From assembly GCA_027415345.1 (NCBI GenBank), contig DAIBTC010000004.1, forward strand, positions 1-46,090: a DNA stretch of 46,090 nucleotides, written 5' to 3'. Positions 32,861 to 44,320 of the stretch are shown here, one piece after another. Positions within the stretch are counted from its first letter, which is position 1; the number at the start of each line of letters is the position of its first letter. The translations under genes were made by a program, and so were the position numbers. Source of the DNA: Nitrospirota bacterium. GTDB lineage: Bacteria > Nitrospirota > Leptospirillia > Leptospirillales > Leptospirillaceae. The notes beneath the pieces were generated by a model. That model saw only the letters and a program-made list of their open reading frames with translations, ran no database searches and was not told where the DNA came from.

Positions 32861-34563
32861 CAGTCGGAGCCTCCGGCCACCAGCGATTCGAGCGGTTTTT
32901 CGAAGAGGCGGGCCTCGAGGATCCTCTCAAGGGGTCTTAGACTCTCGGGATCCAGGGCCGAGACGAAGACCGCCCCCGGGTAGCGGAGTTCGAGGATGCG
33001 CCGGGTATCGGCGGAGATCTGGTCGCACTTGTTGAAGAGGAGGAGAGTCGGAATCCGGTGGAGATCCATCTCCCGGAGGATCGTCTCCACCCGTTCGACC
33101 ATGAGGTCGCACTGGGGGTGGGAGGCATCGGTCACATGGACGATCAGGTCGGCGTCCCGGAGCTCGTCGAAGGTGGCCATGAAGGCCCTCCGGAGATCGG
33201 CGGGAAGATCCCGGATGAACCCCACGGTGTCGGTCAGGATGATCTCCCGCTCCCGGGGGAACCGGAGGCGCCGGGTCGTGGGGTCGAGGGTCGCGAACAT
33301 CTTGTCTTCCACCAGAACCTGGCTTTTGGTGAGGCGGTTCAGCAGGGTGGATTTTCCGACGTTGGTATAGCCCACGAGCGAGACGACAGGGAGCGCCGCC
33401 TCCCGGCGGCGGCTCTTGCGTTCGGCGCGCTCCACCTCGAGATGGCGGAGTCTTTGGGTGAGGGAGGCGATCCGGTCCCGGACCCGTCGCCGGTCTTCCT
33501 CGAGCCGGGTCTCTCCCGGTCCCCGTCCGCCGATGCCCCCCGTCAGGCGGGAGAGGGCGGTGGAGCGTTCGAAGAGGCGGGGGAGAAGGTACTTGAGCTG
33601 GGCCAGCTCGACCTGGAGCTTTCCGTCGCGGCTGTGCGCCCGCCGGGCAAAGATGTCCAGGATGAGCTGGGTCCGGTCGATCACCTTGAGTTCGGTCATC
33701 TCCGCAATCTTCCGGACCTGGTTCGGGGAGAGCTCCTGTTCGAAGATGATCAGGGTGGCATGGACCTGGAGCGCGTGGATCAGAAGAGACTTGAGACGAT
33801 CGAGGCTCATGAGGGTCGTGGGGTGGTAGCGGGCGAGACGCTGCCGGACCACCCCCAGGACATCGACATCGGCGGAGCGGGCGAGCTCGGAGAGTTCGGC
33901 CAGGGCATCCTCCTGGTCGGAGAGGGAATCGGGCGAGACGGAGACAAGGAGGGCCCGTTCCTGTCCCGTGGTCTTTTTCATGGCCGCGGAGAGGCTTCTG
34001 GAGAGCTCCTCCTCCAGAGCCTCGATCCGGCCGCCGGCCGACAGGCTCTCCGGCGTCACCGGGCGGGAGGCCTCGATGATCCAGGGAGGCTCCCCCTGGG
34101 GGTCGGGATTGATGGTCGCGACGCTCACCCGGTCCAGAAGCCCCGAATCCCTGTGCATCTGGAGAGCCACCATGCCGTCGAAGCGGAGCAGGGCCAGGTC
34201 GTTTAAATCGTCCTGGGAGAGGCCCTCGCCCTGGAGATGGGTGTGGACCATGCGCACTCCCCGGAGCGAGCGCCCGCCGGAGCGGGAGGGAGGAAGCTCG
34301 GAGAGGAAGACCTCGCGGGCGGTCCCGACCACGACCATGGCCACCGTTCCTTCCCGGGTAATGAGAAGGGCGATCTGCCGTCCGGTTTCGTGGCTCAGAA
34401 GCGCCATCTGGCGCGCGATTTCAGGGGTGATCCAGAGGCCGGGAGCGATCTTTCGGCCATGGAGACGGGAGAGGGATTTGAGCTGGCTGGCCTTGAGGCC
34501 CGAGAGGTTGCCGGTCAGTCCGGAAATGGGCGGTCCTTTCGCTAGGGGAAACATTCCGGCCAT
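32860..34563 (-). CDS. hflX: Ribosome-associated GTPase HflX with N-terminal extension
   Basis: A GTPase that splits stalled ribosomes. Residues about 195-370 form the HflX domain, with [27 protein letters not shown] and the glycine-rich [20 protein letters not shown]. The G domain follows with [14 protein letters not shown] and NKCD. Unlike E. coli HflX (about 426 residues) it carries some 190 extra N-terminal residues, including [16 protein letters not shown] (His107, His109, Ser116, Asp119), which recalls a JAMM metal site. Similar long forms occur in other lineages. The start may be ATG 34563 or 34554. It leads a three-gene leftward operon. Confidence 0.93.
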
Positions 34564-34587
34564 CGGCCGGTCTTGAATATTGGATTC

Positions 34588-34596
34588 ATTATATCA
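34588..34596 (-). promoter_or_regulatory. Extended -10 promoter of hflX
   Basis: On the minus strand TGATATAAT gives a perfect TATAAT with the TGn extension. It would start transcription near 34581, about 18 nt before ATG 34563. No clear -35 is seen. The same nine bases occur before lspA. Confidence 0.55.
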
Positions 34597-34721
34597 TACC
34601 CGGAGAGGCGCCAAGCCTTGGCCGTCCGTTGGCAAAGCCGGCGGGATCCGGTTTCCTCTTCCTTCCGGTTCTCTTGTTGATGCCCCCTTTTTGCCCCTTC
34701 TCCGGCTCACCCCAAGCGTTT

Positions 34722-34772
34722 TCGCACATATCGGGCCAGAGCGTGCGATTTCTCAGGTCCGATTCCGCACAC
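34722..34772. promoter_or_regulatory. Cluster of CGCAC half-sites upstream of isocitrate dehydrogenase
   Basis: TCGCACAT (34722-34729), GTGCGA (34743-34748) and CCGCACAC (34765-34772) lie within 51 bp. They resemble the arms of the perfect inverted repeat upstream of dabB and sit roughly 100-150 bp before the predicted sigma54 start site. Their spacing differs from that repeat, so a shared binding protein is only a suggestion. The rest of 34597-34721 shows nothing recognisable. Confidence 0.3.
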
Positions 34773-34843
34773 ACGGAGGGAGACTGCCTGGGAAGAGATT
34801 TAAATTCCTTTTTATATTGATGATTTATTTTATATTTAAATTT

Positions 34844-34859
34844 AGGCATCCCTTTTGCT
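34844..34859 (+). promoter_or_regulatory. Putative sigma54 (-24/-12) promoter of isocitrate dehydrogenase
   Basis: AGGCATCCCTTTTGCT matches the consensus TGGCAYRN4TTGCW at 10 of 12 fixed positions and keeps the obligatory GG-N10-GC spacing. Start would be near 34870, 74 nt before the ATG. It follows a strongly AT-rich stretch (34798-34843) that stands out from the GC-rich surroundings. A sigma70 -10-like TATATT at 34831 without a good -35 is the competing reading. Confidence 0.5.
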
Positions 34860-34943
34860 TTGCTCCTCGGACGCCCTCCTTTCAATGAGGAAAGGCAGGG
34901 AACTCACGCGATCTTTATGAATGACGAATGGAGGTTTCAAACG

Positions 34944-35954
34944 ATGGGAAAACATGTCATCACGATGCTTCCCGGCGAGGGAACGGGGCCGGAAATCTGC
35001 GAGGCGGTCCGGAGAATCATCGACCACAGCGGCGTGGACATCACCTGGGAGTATGAGGACATCGGCCTCGACTGCCTCGACAAGTACGGAACGCTTCTCC
35101 CCGAAAAGACGATCAAGTCGATCGCGAAGAACAAGATCGCGATCAAGGGACCCACGACCACACCGATCGGCACGGGCCACAAGAGCGCCAACGTGACCCT
35201 CCGGAAGATGTTCGACCTGTATGCCAACGTCCGTCCGGCCAAGCTCATCCCCGTGCTCAAGCGCCCCTGGGACAAGATCGACATCCTCACCTTCCGGGAA
35301 AACACCGAGGACTCCTACGCGGCCATCGAGCACATGGTCTCCGACGAGGTGGCCCAATGCCTCAAGGTCATCACCTGGCCGGGATCGGTCCGTATCGCCG
35401 AGTTCGCCTTCAAGTGGGCCAAGGCCAACGGGCGCAAGAAGATCCAGTGCGTCCACAAGGCCAACATCATGAAGATGACCGACGGACTCTTCCTCGAGGC
35501 CTTCCGGGAAGTGGCCAAGAAGTATCCCGAGATCGAAGCCGGAGACATCATCGTGGACAACTGCTCCATGCAGCTCGTGAGAAATCCCGCACAGTTCGAC
35601 TGCCTTGTGCTGCCGAACCTTTACGGGGACATCCTCTCCGATCTCTGCGCCGGTCTCGTGGGAGGTCTGGGATTTGCGCCGGGTGCCAACATCGGCGACA
35701 ACTGCTCCATCTTCGAAGCCGTCCACGGGTCGGCCCCGAAGTATGCCGGCATGAAGAAGGTCAACCCGTCGGCCGTTCTCCTCTCGGGGGTGATGATGCT
35801 GCGCTGGATTGGCGAAGGGGCCGCTGCAGAAAAGATCGAAAAGGGCATGAACAAGGTCCTGGCCGAAGGCAAGACGCTCACATACGATGCCGGTGGGACC
35901 GCCTCGACCGACCAATACGCCGACGCCATCATCCGGGCCATGGACACTGTCTGA
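34944..35954 (+). CDS. icd: Isocitrate dehydrogenase, catalytic subunit (NADP-type signature)
   Basis: Interconverts isocitrate and 2-oxoglutarate plus CO2; in reductive-TCA organisms it runs in the carboxylating direction. The 336-residue beta-decarboxylating dehydrogenase has substrate residues in PIGTGHKSANVTLRKMFDLYANVRP, the catalytic Lys in VHKANIMKMTDG and metal-binding Asp in LYGDILSD. The cofactor loop HGSAPKYAGMKKVNP carries the Lys-Tyr pair seen in NADP-specific E. coli enzyme. ATG 34944 has GGAGG nine bases upstream; the track's 34860 start runs into the promoter region. A small partner gene follows 28 bp later and a strong terminator closes the unit. Isopropylmalate dehydrogenase is less likely. 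Confidence 0.88.
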   Translation: MGKHVITMLPGEGTGPEICEAVRRIIDHSGVDITWEYEDIGLDCLDKYGTLLPEKTIKSIAKNKIAIKGPTTTPIGTGHKSANVTLRKMFDLYANVRPAKLIPVLKRPWDKIDILTFRENTEDSYAAIEHMVSDEVAQCLKVITWPGSVRIAEFAFKWAKANGRKKIQCVHKANIMKMTDGLFLEAFREVAKKYPEIEAGDIIVDNCSMQLVRNPAQFDCLVLPNLYGDILSDLCAGLVGGLGFAPGANIGDNCSIFEAVHGSAPKYAGMKKVNPSAVLLSGVMMLRWIGEGAAAEKIEKGMNKVLAEGKTLTYDAGGTASTDQYADAIIRAMDTV

Positions 35955-35982: not shown

Positions 35983-36330
35983 ATGCTGACAAAAGCGACG
36001 ACCGGCCGCGCGAAGCGGCCCGCAAAACCCATCACCCTTGTGGGGGTGGATGTCTATATCATCACCGAAGACGGAATCCCGATGTTCGACGACTACGGGG
36101 CCTTCAAGATCGAGTTCGTCTCGAACCGGGGCACCAAGGTCTGGCCGGGATACGTGAGCGACGATCTCATGATGGTCAACTGGTACCGTTGCCGTTTCAT
36201 GGCGACACGGACGGTGACCGACGCCGACGTGGACACCTTCATGACCGCCCTTTCGAAGAAATGGAAGTGGTCGGCGGCCCAGAAGCTGTGGAACTACGGC
36301 GACGAGGCGGGATTTTCCAAGGCCTACTGA
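35983..36330 (+). CDS. Stand-alone protein resembling the C-terminal domain of Thermus-type isocitrate dehydrogenase
   Basis: A 115-residue protein with TLVGVDVYIITEDG near residue 20, FVSNRGTKVWPG, YRCRFMATR and a C-terminal EAGFSKAY. From memory, these segments match the extra C-terminal domain fused to the long (about 496 aa) isocitrate dehydrogenase of Thermus, but here the domain is a separate gene. ATG 35983 has AAGGAG eight bases upstream. It is 28 bp after the dehydrogenase gene and shares its terminator, so it is probably an accessory or regulatory subunit. The larger track ORF (from 35887) begins inside the dehydrogenase gene and is not used. Confidence 0.7.
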   Translation: MLTKATTGRAKRPAKPITLVGVDVYIITEDGIPMFDDYGAFKIEFVSNRGTKVWPGYVSDDLMMVNWYRCRFMATRTVTDADVDTFMTALSKKWKWSAAQKLWNYGDEAGFSKAY

Positions 36331-36469: not shown

Positions 36470-37951
36470 TCAGCTTTCGCCGGAGGCGTTCCTGCGGGAG
36501 GCGGGAGCCGAAGCCTTTGAGGAAGGGGGAGAATCCCCGGCAGGTGATTTCTCTTCCCTCTCCCTCTCCCCCTTGAGGCGGCGGTCGAGAGCCCAGCGGC
36601 TGATCCCCAGCGATTCGGCGGCCCGGCTCTTGTTGCCGCCCGATCGGGCGAGAACCTCCGAAATCAGACGCCGTTCGGTCCCCTCGAGGGTGTCCTCCCC
36701 CATCCGGAACGGGAGGGAGAGGAGACGGGGATCCTCGGGGGAGGGGGCGGTGGAGGGAAGGAGGAGGGGAGTGCCGCCGTTTCTTAGTTCGGGCGGAAAG
36801 TGGACGGCCTCGAGCTGGGTTCCTCCGCAGAAGAGGACCGCCCGCTCGATCAGGTTCGAAAGCTCGCGGATGTTTCCGGGATAGACATAATCCCGAAGAA
36901 GCCGCTGGGCGGAGGGGGAGATCCTGAGGACCTTTTTCCGCAAGGTCTGGGCCGACTGGTGGAGGAAGCGTTCGGCCAGGGGAACGATATCCTCCCGCCG
37001 GTCCCGCAAGGGGGGAATCGAGAGGGTCACGACATTGAGGCGATAAAAAAGGTCCTCCCGGAAGCGGCCCTCCCGGACCGCGATCCGCAGGTCCCGGTGC
37101 GTGGCTGCCATGAAGCGGACATCGACCGGGAAGGGGGCCCCGCCTCCGACCCGGCGGATCGTCCGCTCCTCGATCACCCGGAGGAGCTTGGCCTGGAGAG
37201 GCAGGGGGAGATCCCCGATCTCGTCTAAGAGGACCGTTCCCCCCTCGGCCAGCTCGACGAGCCCGATCCGGCGTCCGGCGGCCCCCGTGAAGGAGCCCTT
37301 CTCGTAGCCGAAAAGCTCGCTTTCGAAGAGCTCGGAGGGAATGGCCGGACAGTCCACCTCGATGAAGGGCCGGTCCCCCGAGGGCCCGTTGTAGTGCAGG
37401 ACCTTGGCCACATACTCCTTGCCGCTTCCGGTTTCCCCCTGCAGAAGGACCGTCACCCGGTCGTTGGGGGCCAGTCCCGCCACCTGGTCCCGGAGATCCG
37501 ATCCCGCCGGGCTTTCCGCCACCATCCGCTCGAGGGCGTACCGGCCCGACTCCCGGCCGGTCCAGTAGCGGGCCTCGCGGGAGAGGGAGAGGAATCGCGC
37601 GGCATTCGAAAGGGAGAGAAAGAGTTCGTCCATGTCGATGTTCTTGGTGACGAAGTCGAAGGCCCCCAGGCGCATCGCCTCGACCGCATCCTTCACGGTA
37701 CCCCGGGCGGTGAGGAGGATCACGGGGATCTCGAGGTCGGCCGCCCGGACCTCTCTCAAAAGGTCGAGGCCCGACAGCCCCGGCATGACCATGTCCAGCA
37801 CCAGGATGTCGGGAGGGGAGGTCCGGAGAAGGGCCAGCCCCTCCTCGCCGCTCCTGGCCGTCTGGACCACATACCCCCGCTCGGAGAGACGCAGGGCGAA
37901 GGCCTCCCGGATGAGCGGCTCGTCTTCCACCAAAAGAATCGTCGAAATCAT
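36470..37951 (-). CDS. NtrC-family sigma54-dependent response regulator
   Basis: A 493-residue DNA-binding activator. Residues 1-120 are a receiver with acidic pocket Glu9-Asp10-Glu11, phospho-acceptor Asp53 in VLDMVMP, Thr81 and Lys103. Residues about 145-370 are the AAA+ domain with Walker A GETGSGKE (172-179), the sigma54-contact loop GSFTGA (219-224, Ser in place of the usual Ala) and LLDEIGDLP. The C terminus has a Fis-type helix-turn-helix (GGNKSRAAESLGISRWALDRRL). Its ATG overlaps the kinase stop, so the kinase is its partner. It is the last gene of the dabB-dabA operon, whose start has a sigma54 promoter. Confidence 0.95.
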   Translation of the reverse strand: MISTILLVEDEPLIREAFALRLSERGYVVQTARSGEEGLALLRTSPPDILVLDMVMPGLSGLDLLREVRAADLEIPVILLTARGTVKDAVEAMRLGAFDFVTKNIDMDELFLSLSNAARFLSLSREARYWTGRESGRYALERMVAESPAGSDLRDQVAGLAPNDRVTVLLQGETGSGKEYVAKVLHYNGPSGDRPFIEVDCPAIPSELFESELFGYEKGSFTGAAGRRIGLVELAEGGTVLLDEIGDLPLPLQAKLLRVIEERTIRRVGGGAPFPVDVRFMAATHRDLRIAVREGRFREDLFYRLNVVTLSIPPLRDRREDIVPLAERFLHQSAQTLRKKVLRISPSAQRLLRDYVYPGNIRELSNLIERAVLFCGGTQLEAVHFPPELRNGGTPLLLPSTAPSPEDPRLLSLPFRMGEDTLEGTERRLISEVLARSGGNKSRAAESLGISRWALDRRLKGEREREEKSPAGDSPPSSKASAPASRRNASGES

Positions 37952-39930
37952 GGTCCCTCCTGTCTTGACGGAATCCAGACCGTCGCCCGCACCCCGCCTC
38001 CTGCCGGACTTTCGATCAGAAGCGATCCCCGGTGGCGGTCCACGATGTCCCGGCAGATGGTGAGGCCCAGCCCCACTCCCTTGGCCTTGCCGTGAGTGAA
38101 GAAGGGCTCGTTCAGCCTTTTTAAAAGGGCCTCGGGGATCCCCGGGCCCGAATCAAGAAGGCGGACGCCCACCCCTTCCCGCCCGGACCGGTTCTCCCGG
38201 AAAAGGGTGACGGCAAGTCTTCCCCCTCCGGCGGACATGGCATCCAGGGCATTCATGGCCAGGTTCAGAAAGACCTGCTGGAGGGGCCCCCGGGCCCCCT
38301 CGACCGCCGGGATCCCTCCTTCCACCGAAAGGGTCACCTCGACCTGGTGCTTCCGGAAGGCCTCCGCCAGGAGGGACTGGGTATCCCGGACAAGCTCCTC
38401 GAGGACGATCGTCTGGAACTCGAAGCTCCGGGGCCTGAGCTGGGAGAGGTGGGACTCCAGAAGTTCGTCGATCCGCCGGGCCTCGCTTGCGATCAGGGAG
38501 GATTGGCGCCGGAGGGGTTCAGGAAGGTCCCGGGCCTTCGTCATGTGGTCGGCCAGGCTTCCGATGCCGATCAGGGGATTTCTGATTTCATGGAGAAGTC
38601 CTCCCGCCAGCTGCCCCACAAGACGGATCTGCTCCGTCTGCCTGAGCGCCTCGAGGAGGCGTTCCCGCTCGGAGAGATCGGTCAGGATCGCGAGGAAGTA
38701 GCGAATGGTGTTGTCGGGGTCCATCACGGGGCTGATGTTCTCCCAGACCAGAAACTCGCTTTTGTCCTTTCTGCGGTTGATGAAGCGGCCGGTGTAGGGC
38801 TTTCCCGAGAGCAGGGTCTGCCAGAGGAGGTCGTAGAACTCGGAGGGCTGGCGGCCCGAGGAGAGGATCCGGGGCGTGCGGCCGGTCGCCTCCTGGCGGC
38901 TCCAGCCGGACATGCGCTCCATCGCCGGATTCCATTCGAGGATTACCCCCCGGGTATCGGTCAGGATCACCCCGTCCTGGAGCTGGGCGAAGAGCCGCTT
39001 GTAGAGCGAGAGCTGAGTCTCCTCCCGTTTCCAGCGCTCGAGAAGAGTCGCGATGGTGTTGGCCACCGTCTCGAGAAAGCCGATCTCGCTTTGGTCGAAG
39101 CGCCGAACCGAGACAGTGTGGGCGCTCATGGCCCCCAGGACCTGGTCGTGGAACATCATCGGCACGCTCACTCCCGAGCGGACCTTGTGCTCGGAGAGAA
39201 GGACCGAGGGGGAGAACCGGGTCTCGGTCAGAAGATCCTCCACCACCACCGGCCGCTTCTGGCGGATCGCGAACCCCGCCTGGGAGTGGATTCCTCCCTC
39301 CTGGACATAGCTGCCCACCAGCCCCGGCCGCCACCCGACTCCCGCCAGAAGGTGCAGGAGCGGATCGGAATCCCCCGGGATCAGGATCTTGCAGAACTCC
39401 ACGTCCAGGGCCCGGGCCGTCTCCCGGGCGGCGACGGTGGCGATTTCGGAGAGACCGGCCCCCTTGACCGCCAGATGGGCGATCTTTCCCAGAACCTCCT
39501 GGTAGCGGCCGAAGGCCAGGGTCTCCCGGGCCAGGACCTCGAGATCGGTCATGTCCTGGACGTGCATGAGGACAAGGCCCTCCTCCCCGCCAGAGGGCGG
39601 AAGAAGGGTCGTCTGGCTGTCGACGATCCGGGCCTGCCCTTCCCGGGTGACGGCCGCAAGCTTTCTCCGGATCTCCGGACGGGCGGAGGTCGTCTCCCGG
39701 GCCTGGTCCAGAAGAAGTCCCTCGATGGGCCGGGGAACCCCCTCCGGGGAGACCACGGACAGATCCTTCCGGATTCGCTCGCAGGCAGGGGTGGCAAAAA
39801 GGATCCGGCCCAGGCGGTCGACCAGACAGAATCCTCCGGGACCGTCCTCTCCCGGATCCCGGGAGAGGATCCGCTCCAGCGGAATCGTAAAGGACAATGT
39901 TCCCGGAAAGCCCTGTCTGCCCTCACTCAC
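37948..39930 (-). CDS. Cytoplasmic PAS/GAF sensor histidine kinase
   Basis: A 660-residue kinase without membrane segments. A PAS-like region (residues about 30-130, FCLVDRLGRILFATPACE) is followed by GAF (about 155-300), PAS (about 310-425, DGVILTDTRGVILEWNPAME), HisKA with His447 in LLHEIRNPL, and HATPase with NALDAM, DSGPGIPE and GVGLGLTI. The signal is therefore intracellular and unknown. The track ORF from 40308 reads dabA DNA out of frame. GTG 39930 sits six bases after AGAGG and overlaps the dabA stop by 8 bp. The next gene is its NtrC-like regulator (ATGA overlap). Confidence 0.92.
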   Translation of the reverse strand: MSEGRQGFPGTLSFTIPLERILSRDPGEDGPGGFCLVDRLGRILFATPACERIRKDLSVVSPEGVPRPIEGLLLDQARETTSARPEIRRKLAAVTREGQARIVDSQTTLLPPSGGEEGLVLMHVQDMTDLEVLARETLAFGRYQEVLGKIAHLAVKGAGLSEIATVAARETARALDVEFCKILIPGDSDPLLHLLAGVGWRPGLVGSYVQEGGIHSQAGFAIRQKRPVVVEDLLTETRFSPSVLLSEHKVRSGVSVPMMFHDQVLGAMSAHTVSVRRFDQSEIGFLETVANTIATLLERWKREETQLSLYKRLFAQLQDGVILTDTRGVILEWNPAMERMSGWSRQEATGRTPRILSSGRQPSEFYDLLWQTLLSGKPYTGRFINRRKDKSEFLVWENISPVMDPDNTIRYFLAILTDLSERERLLEALRQTEQIRLVGQLAGGLLHEIRNPLIGIGSLADHMTKARDLPEPLRRQSSLIASEARRIDELLESHLSQLRPRSFEFQTIVLEELVRDTQSLLAEAFRKHQVEVTLSVEGGIPAVEGARGPLQQVFLNLAMNALDAMSAGGGRLAVTLFRENRSGREGVGVRLLDSGPGIPEALLKRLNEPFFTHGKAKGVGLGLTICRDIVDRHRGSLLIESPAGGGVRATVWIPSRQEGP

Positions 39931-42445
39931 AAAAGACCTCTTTTCCCGAAGGGGATCGAAGCGGGGAGTCCTCCCCCTCGTCCCTGACCCACGTCCCTTG
40001 CCGGCTCCGGTGCTCCATCGGCTCGCCCGGGACCAGGCGGGAGAGGTGGATCCACCCGTTTTCGACCAGGTTCCGGACCAGGGCATGGCGCCCGATGATC
40101 CGCTCGATGGGAGCCCTTGGCGCCTCGACCAGAACGAGGAGCCGAAGCGGTTCATGGACGAAGCGGCGCCCGTCATGAAGGGACTGGAGGGCCAGGCCCG
40201 TCCGGAGATCCCCTCCGTTCCCCTCGAAGACCCCGATGGCTCCTCCCACCACATTGTGAAGGACCTTGTTGCCGCTTCCGAAACGCCGGTTGTCCACCAC
40301 AGACCCATAATACTGCATGTTGATCCAGTGTCCCACGATCATGGGGGCGGTCAGGATCAGCTCAAGGGTCGCAAATTCCGGATCCTTTTGCCAGTCATAG
40401 TCGTGAAGGAAGGCACGTCCGGAAAGATCCACCCCCGCCGTCCGGATCCGGGGGGCCACGATGAAGGCGGCATTGCCGGCGAGCCCCCATTCGGGCCGGA
40501 CCTCGGACCAGTCCCGCCCCCGGCGCCTGGCCTCTTTCAAAAGGATCTCCGGGGAGGGCTCAGGGCTTCCGAAGAGGGCGGCCCGTTCGGCGCAGGCCCG
40601 CTCCCCGGCCCGCTCAAGATCCCCCGAGAGACGATCGATCTCGTTTTTGCGTCCCCCGGCCCAGGCTCCCGGATCGAGGAGGGTGACCCGGTCGGTGGTG
40701 GTGTCATGAAGGGCCGCCACGAAGAGCGTCTCCCTTGGAATCCTGATCCCCGCGCTGGAAAGTCCCTGGCGTGTCGCCGGATCATTGAGGAGGGCGGCGG
40801 CAATATGGGCGCTGGCCTCCCCGCTCTGGCCGGCGCAGGCCCCGCAGTCGAGGGCGCTGGCCTGCGGGTTGTTGGTCGTGGACGATCCGTGTCCCACCAG
40901 AAGGACGATCCGGGGAAAGCCTTCCACAAGCCCCATGGCCCGAAGAACGGACGCGGCGACCCGGGGCCGTTCCGGGAGAGGGATTCCCGTCTCTCCCGGA
41001 ACGCCGTCGAGATCGAAGACCAGAGAGCGGCGTTCCTCCTCCCGAAGACCCCGGTGGCGGGGGGGAGAATCGCTTTCCCCCATTCCCAGCACCTTCATGA
41101 GGAGCTTTCCCGCCGTAAGAAGCCCTGCCGATTCCACGAAGGCAAAGGCGGAGGAGGCCGAGGTCTTGAAGATCTTCCAGGCATGATCGGTGCCGAGCCG
41201 GATCTCACGCCGGGATTTGAGGCGCGCATGCTCTCCTTCTGCTCCCCCCGCGGGCCTCTCCTCGATCTGGAAAGCGGGAGAGAAGAGGACCGGGAGATGG
41301 GAAAGCGCCCCCGACGTTCCGATGGAGCGGACCGCCGCCGGGATGCCGAAGAAGCCCGCAAAGCCTGCGGTCTTTATATCAGGCGCCACCTGCTCCAGGG
41401 CGCGGCGGAAGACTTCCGACCGAACATCGATGCAGAAGACCGCCAGGGCCCGGGGAGGCGCCTCCCTCGCCCCTTCGGGGGCCGGGGTCTCCTGTTTGCG
41501 AAGGAGGGCGGACAGAGAGCGACGGTAGCCGATCTCGAAGGCCCGGGCGAGAAGCATGTCGACCTCCCTCTCCCGCCGGTGGATCTCCGCGCCTGCCCGT
41601 TCCTCCTCTTTCCACTTTATGAGCCGGCTCTCCCAAAGGCGCAGGAGACTCTCCCGGCGTCCGGTCTCCAGAAGGATCCTCTCCCAGGCCAGCCGGATGG
41701 CCAGAAGATCCCGCATCGAATTCTCGGTCTCCCCCAAAAGCTCCACCTGCCAGAGGCGGTAGCGGGCCCAGGAGGCCCAGCCCCCCACGGAGAGAAGGGC
41801 CGCATGAAGGCGATCCTCCTCCATCTCCGAAGGGAGGGAGAGCTCCTCCACGACCCCGCGGATCGTCTCCTCCGGATCCTCCGGGAGAGCGGAGACGAGA
41901 CCCCGGACCCCCCGGAGACCGAAGAGGCGGGGAGACTTGTCGATCAGCGCCTGGGACCGCCAGGCCTCGTAGAGGGACCGGCTCTTCCAGGGGTTCTTCC
42001 AGAGGGCCTGGCCCATGTCGAACCAGGAGGCGCAGACCGGGCTGATGCGGTCCACCACGAAGCTCTCCCAGGATCGGCCGTCGACCTCCTCCCTGAGAGC
42101 GCCCATAAGAAGAGGCGCGGGAGAGGGTCCTTTCGCCTCCCGGTCGATTTCCCGAAGAAGAGTCGGAAGGTCGAGCGGGCTTCCGCATTCCCGGAGAGCC
42201 TCCGAGAGATCCCGGGACCGGATCCGCCCCGTGCGGATCTGCTCGCGGTAATAGGCCCTGTCCATCAGGAGTCCGGTTCCGGCCACCCGCCCCAGGGTCC
42301 GGTGGGCCTCCTCCCAGGGCCGGTCCACGAGCCCGAAGTAGGGGCTCACGGCCACAAAATGCTTGAGGGGCCAGAGGGGGGCGATCCTCCGGCAGGCCCG
42401 GTCGACGGAGGCAGAGAGGGAGAGAGGGATCGGAGGGGTTGTCAT
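39923..42445 (-). CDS. dabA: DabA inorganic-carbon uptake subunit (DUF2309)
   Basis: Carbonic-anhydrase-like subunit of the DAB complex, which traps CO2 as bicarbonate in the cytoplasm in an energy-coupled way. The 840-residue protein has the zinc-site motifs of the family: FCIDVRSE near residue 338 (Cys and Asp) and VGHGSSTTNNPQASALDCGACAGQ near residues 515-538 (His and Cys). ARFRSEVF-like context and TAGFAGFFG further mark the UPF0753/DUF2309 family. Its ATG overlaps the dabB stop and its end overlaps the kinase start. The 971-residue ORF on the opposite strand is a codon-phase shadow. Confidence 0.95.
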   Translation of the reverse strand: MTTPPIPLSLSASVDRACRRIAPLWPLKHFVAVSPYFGLVDRPWEEAHRTLGRVAGTGLLMDRAYYREQIRTGRIRSRDLSEALRECGSPLDLPTLLREIDREAKGPSPAPLLMGALREEVDGRSWESFVVDRISPVCASWFDMGQALWKNPWKSRSLYEAWRSQALIDKSPRLFGLRGVRGLVSALPEDPEETIRGVVEELSLPSEMEEDRLHAALLSVGGWASWARYRLWQVELLGETENSMRDLLAIRLAWERILLETGRRESLLRLWESRLIKWKEEERAGAEIHRREREVDMLLARAFEIGYRRSLSALLRKQETPAPEGAREAPPRALAVFCIDVRSEVFRRALEQVAPDIKTAGFAGFFGIPAAVRSIGTSGALSHLPVLFSPAFQIEERPAGGAEGEHARLKSRREIRLGTDHAWKIFKTSASSAFAFVESAGLLTAGKLLMKVLGMGESDSPPRHRGLREEERRSLVFDLDGVPGETGIPLPERPRVAASVLRAMGLVEGFPRIVLLVGHGSSTTNNPQASALDCGACAGQSGEASAHIAAALLNDPATRQGLSSAGIRIPRETLFVAALHDTTTDRVTLLDPGAWAGGRKNEIDRLSGDLERAGERACAERAALFGSPEPSPEILLKEARRRGRDWSEVRPEWGLAGNAAFIVAPRIRTAGVDLSGRAFLHDYDWQKDPEFATLELILTAPMIVGHWINMQYYGSVVDNRRFGSGNKVLHNVVGGAIGVFEGNGGDLRTGLALQSLHDGRRFVHEPLRLLVLVEAPRAPIERIIGRHALVRNLVENGWIHLSRLVPGEPMEHRSRQGTWVRDEGEDSPLRSPSGKEVFCE

Positions 42446-44127
42446 GGAAGGACCTCCCGGGAATGAGGATTGGGGGAATCGGCCAGACGGAGCCGCCCGG
42501 GAGAGCTATAGCCTCCCTTTCGCGGTCTCCGCGGGGTGAGCAGCCGGTCCAGCAGGGCATCGGTGTAAAGACCGGCCCCGAGATGGACGTAGAGTCTCCG
42601 GAGGATCGGCCGGTCTCCGGAGAGAGGAAGCGTCTCCTCGATCCAGAGAAGGCCCAGGAAGAGGGCGGCCACCAGCACAAGGATCGTCATCTGGAGGGGG
42701 GTTTGCGGAAGAGGGGCGGAGGGAAGAACGGGGCCAAGACCCAGCTCGAAGAGGCGGTGGAGGGCGAAGGTCGCGAGAGAGACGGCGGCGACCAGACCGG
42801 CCGTCGGAAGAAGCAGGGGGAATCCCGAGCGCCCCCGGGCCGAAAGCCCCGAGAGAAGGAGACGGGCCAGGGCGACGGAGAGGATCATCCCCAGAAGGAG
42901 GAGGGCGGGCTCACGCCCAAGGTCGAGGCCCATGAGGCCTCCGGAGAGAAGGGTCAGGAGAATGCCTGTGGCCAGCGCCAGGAACATCCGGCCCGGGGGC
43001 CCCCCCAATTTGGGAGCGATCGAGAGCTCCGGGCCGCGGAAGGGCTCGACCACGCTTCCCGACGAGAGAAAGGCGTGGGCTTTGTAAAGGGAATGGGCGA
43101 TGATGTGCATGACGGCCACGCTGTAGAGCCCTAAGGCACACTCCAGGAGCATGAACCCCATCTGGGCGCAGGTCGACCAGGCGAGGGCCCCCTTGATGTC
43201 GCTGGCAATCATCATGGCCAGGGCGGAGACGACAATGGTGGCCATGGCATTTGCGATGAGAAGGTCCCGAAACCCCGTCGGAAGGGAGACGAGAGGGGCC
43301 ATTCTGAGATAGAGAAAGGTTCCGGAGTAAATGAGCCCGGCGTGCATGAGGGCCGAGACCGGAGTCGGGGCCTCCATCACCTGGATGAGCCAGCCCTGGA
43401 GGGGAAACTGGGCGCTCTTTGCGACCACGGCCAGGAAGAGGAGGCCGGCGGCGAGCCACAGGGAGGGTGAGAGCTCCGTCCGGCCGGAGAGGGCGGCTGC
43501 CAGTCCGGAAAAACGGTCGGTCGACAGGGTCCGGGAGACCAGGACAAAGGCCCCCAGGAGGGCCAGGTCGGCCATTCTGTGGAGAAAGAACTTCTTCCGG
43601 GCGGCCAGGCGCGCCTTCGGCCGGTCGGGGTAGAAGACGAGCAGACGATGGAGGCAGAGACCCTTTGCGACCCAGGAGAGAAAGAAAGCCCAGATGTTGT
43701 CCACGACGACCATCGTGAAGAAGAATCCCAGCGTCAGGCTCATGAACTGCATGAAGCGTCCCGCGCCCGGCTCCCCGTCCAGGTAGCGCTCCGAAAACCG
43801 GACGACGGCCAGCCCCACGAAGGCCACGAGAAGCGACATCGCAAGGCTCAGGGGATTGACCCCCACCCGAATTTCGAAGGCCCCCAGACCTGCCGGAAGG
43901 GGCAGGGAGAGCCAGGTGATCGTGCGGGAGAACCCCAGGATATAGGTTGCCAGGGCCAAAAGGGCCGAAACCATGGCAAAGGCGGCCGAGGCCGTCGTGG
44001 CCGTTTTCATGAGACGGGGATGGCGGTCCGCGCCGCCTATGGCGGAGAGGATCCCCGTCGCCAACAGGGGCCAGGGAAGGATCAGAAGGAAGGCCGAGGC
44101 GGCCAACGCGGTCGGTGAAGAGATCAT
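42442..44127 (-). CDS. dabB: DabB membrane subunit (NuoL-like proton channel)
   Basis: Membrane partner of DabA, related to the NuoL/MrpA cation-translocating subunits of complex I. The 561-residue protein has about a dozen hydrophobic helices and the conserved core KSAQFPLQGWLIQVMEAPTPVSALMHAGLIYSG near residue 250, with the key Lys and the helix-breaking segment. It presumably couples ion flow to DabA's CO2 hydration. ATG 44127 is preceded by AAAGGAG; the track's 44220 start would read through the promoter. It is the first gene of the dabB-dabA-kinase-regulator operon. Confidence 0.93.
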   Translation of the reverse strand: MISSPTALAASAFLLILPWPLLATGILSAIGGADRHPRLMKTATTASAAFAMVSALLALATYILGFSRTITWLSLPLPAGLGAFEIRVGVNPLSLAMSLLVAFVGLAVVRFSERYLDGEPGAGRFMQFMSLTLGFFFTMVVVDNIWAFFLSWVAKGLCLHRLLVFYPDRPKARLAARKKFFLHRMADLALLGAFVLVSRTLSTDRFSGLAAALSGRTELSPSLWLAAGLLFLAVVAKSAQFPLQGWLIQVMEAPTPVSALMHAGLIYSGTFLYLRMAPLVSLPTGFRDLLIANAMATIVVSALAMMIASDIKGALAWSTCAQMGFMLLECALGLYSVAVMHIIAHSLYKAHAFLSSGSVVEPFRGPELSIAPKLGGPPGRMFLALATGILLTLLSGGLMGLDLGREPALLLLGMILSVALARLLLSGLSARGRSGFPLLLPTAGLVAAVSLATFALHRLFELGLGPVLPSAPLPQTPLQMTILVLVAALFLGLLWIEETLPLSGDRPILRRLYVHLGAGLYTDALLDRLLTPRRPRKGGYSSPGRLRLADSPNPHSREVLP

Positions 44128-44203: not shown

Positions 44204-44219
44204 AGCAATCGACATGCCA
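44204..44219 (-). promoter_or_regulatory. Consensus sigma54 (-24/-12) promoter of the dab operon
   Basis: On the minus strand TGGCATGTCGATTGCT matches TGGCAYRN4TTGCW at every fixed position, with GG-N10-GC spacing. The predicted start is near 44193, giving a 66-nt leader to dabB. An AT-rich stretch lies directly upstream (44220-44252). The operon it drives encodes an NtrC-family activator. Confidence 0.85.
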
Positions 44220-44302: not shown

Positions 44303-44320
44303 ATGTGCGCATCCGCACAT
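44303..44320. promoter_or_regulatory. Inverted repeat, likely enhancer site of the dab operon
   Basis: ATGTGCGCATCCGCACAT consists of two perfect 7-bp arms around CATC. It is centred about 118 bp upstream of the predicted sigma54 start site, the typical distance for NtrC-family enhancer sites, and lies in non-coding DNA. The dimeric Fis-type helix-turn-helix of the regulator at the end of the operon would suit such a palindrome. Binding is inferred. Confidence 0.6.

Follow-up and report, generated by a model that had tools for sequence, protein, structure and literature searches.

The closest described counterparts of the locus analyzed here are the sigma54 promoters of the NtrC/glnA type and the DAB inorganic-carbon pumps. 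In the NtrC/glnA-type systems, upstream dyads and an AT-rich spacer precede a -24/-12 element with GG-N10-GC spacing, the same layout as upstream of the isocitrate dehydrogenase gene (icd) in this locus, and the activator, with a receiver-AAA+-Fis helix-turn-helix (HTH) architecture, is encoded alongside a kinase, as is the regulator linked to the dab genes; unlike in these systems, the targets here are an inorganic-carbon pump and isocitrate dehydrogenase. The DAB pumps (DabA/DabB) share with this locus the dabB-dabA operon and the PF10070 domain, but here, unlike in other DAB pumps, the last genes of the operon encode a two-component system that includes a sigma54 activator; elsewhere, the regulators known for DAB systems are LysR-type proteins. 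In the open-licence papers covered by our search, we came across neither an account of dab or icd in Leptospirillum or Nitrospira as part of a sigma54 regulon nor a regulator with the dyad GTGCG-N4-CGCAC, and no regulator was named there that matches carbon uptake to fixation in reductive-TCA autotrophs such as these bacteria. The comparison presented below indicates that a single two-component regulator probably switches on both icd and the inorganic-carbon pump. Shared control of this kind would couple central carbon metabolism to the uptake of inorganic carbon, and the analysis supplies a specific candidate regulator, a predicted binding motif and two target promoters. The findings may also bear on the induction of icd in planktonic L. 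ferrooxidans, where the NAD-dependent icd is reported to be the most induced gene, at more than 20-fold (PMC2996932); this fits a strongly controlled promoter, and the regulator is not named there. For the isocitrate dehydrogenase of L. ferriphilum, an anabolic role has been doubted (PMC2607301). Operation of the NAD-type enzyme of this locus in the CO2-fixing direction, as the original prediction supposes, is hypothetical.

The window, that is, the whole analyzed stretch of 46,090 nucleotides, is one contig of a 2.0-Mb draft genome in 348 contigs (the source genome, G000). The icd gene (34944..35954, + strand) encodes an NAD-type isocitrate dehydrogenase of 336 amino acids (Pfam PF00180, E 7.9e-102; the best NCBIfam match, PRK08997.1, reaches 422 bits, under its cut-off of 510); its ATG at 34944 is preceded by GGAGG at 34930-34934, and, among named records, its closest counterparts come from MAGs that carry the label Nitrospirae bacterium or Leptospirillum sp. 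Among the 21 genomes of the family, 17 carry icd at 91-100% identity, 17 encode orthologues of the regulator, and at least 12 contain a second relative that is more distant, with an identity of 43-47% across residues 140-334 or less. The gene located 3' of icd (35983..36330, + strand) encodes a 115-aa protein that resembles the C-terminal part of longer isocitrate dehydrogenases (NF006673 positions 362-479, E 5.8e-11, under the curated cut-off); it adjoins icd in both Leptospirillaceae and Nitrospira. Convergent with icd is an operon on the - strand that consists of dabB (NuoL-like, 42442..44127, PF00361), dabA (39923..42445, PF10070, E 8e-261), a sensor kinase (ORF 37948..40308, with GAF, PAS, HisKA and HATPase domains) and the proposed regulator, a response regulator and sigma54 activator with receiver, AAA+ and Fis-type HTH domains (36470..37951). 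Because the kinase ORF overlaps dabA, the true start of the kinase is probably near 39.9 kb, with the remainder of the ORF being the overlap. Divergent from icd, and sharing its intergenic region, is hflX, with the start at 34563. RpoN is encoded elsewhere in the source genome (PF04552, E 1e-62, on G000:C295), along with ten strong sigma54-activator domains, the dab-linked regulator included, and a weak one.

The GG-N10-GC spacing that the original prediction noted before icd is borne out: the sigma54-type element GGCATCCCTTTTGCT (34845..34859, + strand) contains GG at 34845-34846 and GC at 34857-34858, with TTGC at -12. Scored against the full sigma54 consensus, TGGCACG-N4-TTGCW, it matches 9 of the 12 positions and not 10 as previously counted, the higher number being reached only if C or T is accepted at the sixth position; two relatives (G008 and G016) have TGGCACTTCTCTTGCT. 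With the predicted transcription start ~12 nt 3' of the GC and the ATG at 34944, the leader would be ~74 nt long. The pattern GGCAYNNNNNTTGCW matches the 46-kb window twice, at icd and at the dab operon (GGCATGTCGATTGCT, 44204..44218, - strand), with 0.12 matches expected from shuffles and two matches found in 2 of 100 shuffles. Conservation of the element, proposed at the outset as a check capable of overturning the prediction, was observed: GG-N10-GC with TTGC is located 90-100 nt 5' of the icd ATG in 15 of the 17 family genomes with icd, the exceptions being G007 (L022) and G001 (L024), and across these 15 genomes the eight core columns of the alignment average 97.5% conservation, the 24 columns upstream 51% and the 13 columns downstream 40%.

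The AT-rich stretch before the element was also recovered. The 58 nt between the putative activator sites and the promoter (34787..34844, + strand) are 81% A+T compared with 44% farther upstream, and the A+T content of this spacer is 64-81% in all 15 genomes with the element, its sequence not being conserved. Such base composition is compatible with transcription of icd from a sigma70 promoter near the TATATT at 34831, in which case the GG-N10-GC would be incidental; moreover, icd of G007 must use another promoter because it has no element, and visual inspection suggests a sigma70-like TTGATT-18-TATTTT in its place. For the window, we consider a sigma70 start very improbable. A search for sigma70 -35 and -10 hexamers with 16-18 nt spacing produced no promoter that reached the threshold in 34500-35000 (0 found), and the region around the TATATT shows no conservation among the relatives, against the 97.5% of the -24/-12 core; the candidate start near 34831, the second of the initially proposed refuting checks, was accordingly rejected.

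The half-sites that were originally reported, CGCACAT (34723-34729), GTGCGA (34743-34748) and CGCACAC (34766-34772), are all present. The reservation that their spacing is unlike that of the dab repeat is largely removed because each half-site turns out to be one arm of a degenerate dyad with an N4 spacer; the dyads at icd are imperfect. At the dab operon, the predicted regulator dyad is ATGTGCG-GATG-CGCACAT (44303..44320, - strand). Upstream of icd, there are three putative sites on the + strand: site A, CCAAGCG-TTTT-CGCACAT (34712..34729), with one good arm and one degenerate arm, which ends 114 bp before the -24 element; site B, GCGTGCGATTTCTCAGGT (34741..34758), which ends 85 bp before it; and site C, AGGTCCGATTCCGCACAC (34755..34772), which ends 71 bp before it. 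A symmetric matrix trained on 13 dab dyads (14 loci, two of them identical) and zero icd sequences assigns a score of 10.4 to each of sites A and B, and 14.9 to site C, the best-scoring icd dyad in the window (p=0.010, 300 dinucleotide shuffles). The match to GTGCG-N4-CGCAC with one mismatch at 34757-34770 is at chance level in the window alone (0.75 expected; two or more in 21 of 100 shuffles), so that the significance of the icd dyad comes from the relatives.

In the family, 14 of the 16 dabB upstream regions contain a TGGCA...TGC element together with a GTGCG-N4-CGCAC-like dyad that ends 59-63, 80-84 or 93 bp before the element; the two regions without this combination belong to G004 and G005, where they precede a second dabB-like copy. 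A second dab locus in G009 (G009:C11, L079) has its own sigma54 element and CGCACA half-sites. When applied to the icd regions, the dab-only matrix yields p<=0.02 in 12 of 17 (300 dinucleotide shuffles), a count that, like those for Nitrospira given below, does not consist of independent cases since the relatives share ancestry. The non-significant regions are the two without the element (L022 and L024) and three of the 15 with it (L015, p=0.44; L017, p=0.54; L019, p=0.90). Measured from the -24 element, the icd dyads of the relatives lie at 114, 85 and 71 bp (alternatively about 62 bp); of the 15 element-bearing genomes, 9 have a scoring site at 113-115 bp, the distance of site A, and 9 have one at 84-86 bp, the distance of site B, the window included in both counts. 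These fixed distances to the icd element argue against the possibility that the half-sites serve the divergent hflX rather than icd, which is conceivable because the two genes share this intergenic region and the hflX start is about 150-210 bp away. As the window-wide search with GGCAYNNNNNTTGCW, which was not hflX-specific, also gave no element directed toward hflX, we view a role in hflX expression as the least credible of the alternatives.

The genomes that depart from this arrangement are informative in different ways. G001 is 99% complete and encodes both RpoN and icd; in this genome, no regulator was detected at E<=1e-100, the dabB search produced only distant NuoL-type matches, and the region upstream of icd contains no correctly spaced element (N11 in place of N10) and no significant dyad. 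The icd element, the regulator and dab are thus jointly missing in G001, in one genome only. In G007, a contig other than that of icd carries both dab and the regulator, along with a good dyad and element; icd itself (G007:C57), located away from the dab cluster, has neither the element nor a significant dyad. Three further genomes (G002, G011 and G020) contain neither a high-identity icd nor the regulator; two of these drafts are 64-70% complete.

The same arrangement recurs in Nitrospira, where icd is 76-87% identical to that in the window and is preceded by TGGAMTC-N5-TTGCA-type elements and by dyads whose most frequent positions are about -160 and -130 relative to the element. Both the element and the dyad are present before icd in 28 of 34 Nitrospira loci; the six misses are L130, L142, L157, L161, L162 and L166. 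Among these, L157 offers no more than 15 nt of sequence before icd, and in L161 the icd start is mis-set (Ns) and an element is present. Orthologues of the regulator (about 58-63% identical over about 460 aa) and of the kinase (about 50-55%) are encoded upstream of icd in many Nitrospira loci. Applied to 32 icd regions on the Nitrospira side, the Leptospirillaceae matrix reaches individual significance in only 4 and usually picks the conserved positions, so the case for Nitrospira rests on the alignment and the fixed positions, the matrix being weak there. Of the 17 loci with dabA matches, three with truncated sequence were left out, as was L160, which belongs to the window's own family and in which dabB leads the operon and no dyad precedes dabA. 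In eight of the 13 remaining Nitrospira loci, those for which a start of dabA could be assigned, this gene is preceded by pairs of dyads, mostly separated by 18-19 bp (L129, L131, L132, L140, L147, L148, L161 and L165); the other five (L133, L138, L139, L152 and L164) show no dyad before dabA, and at least four of them have a dabB-like gene close by that may lead the operon. The L132 dabA locus was scored without the element as the chosen start lies upstream, and the element was seen separately. In Nitrospira moscoviensis, one icd copy (L147) and the neighbouring dabA carry the sites, and the other icd copy (L142) is without the element; this organism, with its complete genome, is suitable for testing the co-control of icd and dab.

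A search of the 21 family genomes for a half-site combined with the -24/-12 element (CGCAC-N57..87-GGCAYNNNNNWTGCW) retrieved 25 matches, compared with a single match for the reversed control pattern. By position, 8 of these belong to icd, 11 to dab (10 promoters) and 6 to other regions, of which three were taken as nifH and three are unexplained; among the nifH matches, those in G000:C287 and G017:C113 precede nifH, and the matched sequence in G009:C1 is the same as in G000. In the source genome, the matches are limited to icd, dab and nifH, and the candidate third member of the regulon there turned out to be nifH. The nifH promoter of this genome (L104:1480-1620, G000:C287) has a near-ideal sigma54 element, TGGCATATCGATTGCT, which is nearly the dab element, and, unlike dab and icd, is preceded not by a GTGCG dyad but by TGT-N10-ACA, which we take to be a NifA-type site; it was retrieved because CGCACA overlaps this site. 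The strict combination of dyad and element (GTGCGNNNNCGCAC N50-80 TGGCAYNNNNNNTGC) proved too strict, with matches in 2 of the 21 genomes, both at dab. The left-arm pattern GTGCG...GGYAY gave 13 matches (by position, 5 icd, 2 dab and 6 neither), none of them in the source genome.

The retrieval of nifH, along with the presence of nine further strong sigma54-activator domains and a weak one in the source genome, raises the possibility that the icd promoter is used by another activator, for example, an NtrC-like nitrogen regulator, with the dab-like half-sites being coincidental or common to several activators. 2-Oxoglutarate ties isocitrate dehydrogenase to nitrogen status, which is in line with such a scenario. 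Nevertheless, it appears unlikely given that the same dyad is found at dab and icd in two families, that the icd element, the regulator and dab disappear together in G001, and that the regulator gene neighbours both icd and dab.

Joint sigma54 control of icd and dab, the central claim of the original prediction, is instead supported by the motif identity, the genome-wide specificity, the co-loss in G001 and the repetition in Nitrospira. From these observations and the gene linkage we infer, with a probability of roughly 80%, that the regulator encoded at 36473-37951 activates the RpoN polymerase at both dab and icd, via the dyads and looping of the spacer, in response to one sensed condition. 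Under this model, icd would be transcribed from the sigma54 promoter at 34845-34859 and activated by the NtrC-family regulator whose gene is the last in the convergent dabB-dabA-kinase-regulator operon. The regulator would bind GTGCG-N4-CGCAC-like dyads, a strong one at dab and three weaker, phased ones at icd that end 71-114 bp before the -24 element; the AT-rich spacer would permit looping to the RpoN polymerase, and the promoter would be opened by ATP hydrolysis. The pump and the enzyme would then rise jointly under a single condition, with low CO2 or bicarbonate as a plausible signal.

The predicted 5' end of the icd mRNA contains a hairpin with an invariant UUC-AAUGNN-GA tip (34868..34904, + strand) that folds in all 17 family icd leaders. 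Over its seven stem pairs, 96.6% of the cells are paired and four pairs are changed on both sides; the covariation score is 0.420 compared with 0.209 in shuffles, and none of 500 shuffles reached it. A model built from the 17 leaders (R1) recovers all 17 at E<=6.6e-5, with the next match in the 21 genomes at 0.019, and the Rfam search with the icd leader gave chance-level matches only (E 5.8 and 6.1). CsrA was considered as a ligand and rejected as, by eye, some rows have no GGA in the tip. The hairpin does not depend on the sigma54 promoter, as G007 and G001 both retain it, and its covariation suggests a second, RNA-level control.

The icd leaders of Nitrospira, for which the Rfam search gave no match, contain a conserved structure of another kind, in which the Shine-Dalgarno region is paired and which shows little covariation. 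A broader proposal, to which we assign about even odds, is that of an ancient carbon regulon of Nitrospira and Leptospirillum-type bacteria in which a GAF/PAS kinase and an NtrC-family regulator would sense the inorganic-carbon supply, sigma54 would switch on the DAB pump and isocitrate dehydrogenase, and a lineage-specific leader RNA (the AAUGNN-loop hairpin in Leptospirillaceae; the Shine-Dalgarno-pairing CCCUU...AAGGG in Nitrospira) would tune the enzyme output. The Nitrospira-side leaders (L141:9940-10003 and others, alignment A4) display the conserved sequence GGG..CGGATGGTCCG..CCCTTGCTGCTTAAGGGAGG, where the CCCTT has two possible pairing partners, the Shine-Dalgarno AAGGG and the upstream GGG, in the manner of a translational switch. 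The Nitrospira-type structure is also found in L130, a locus without the sigma54 element.
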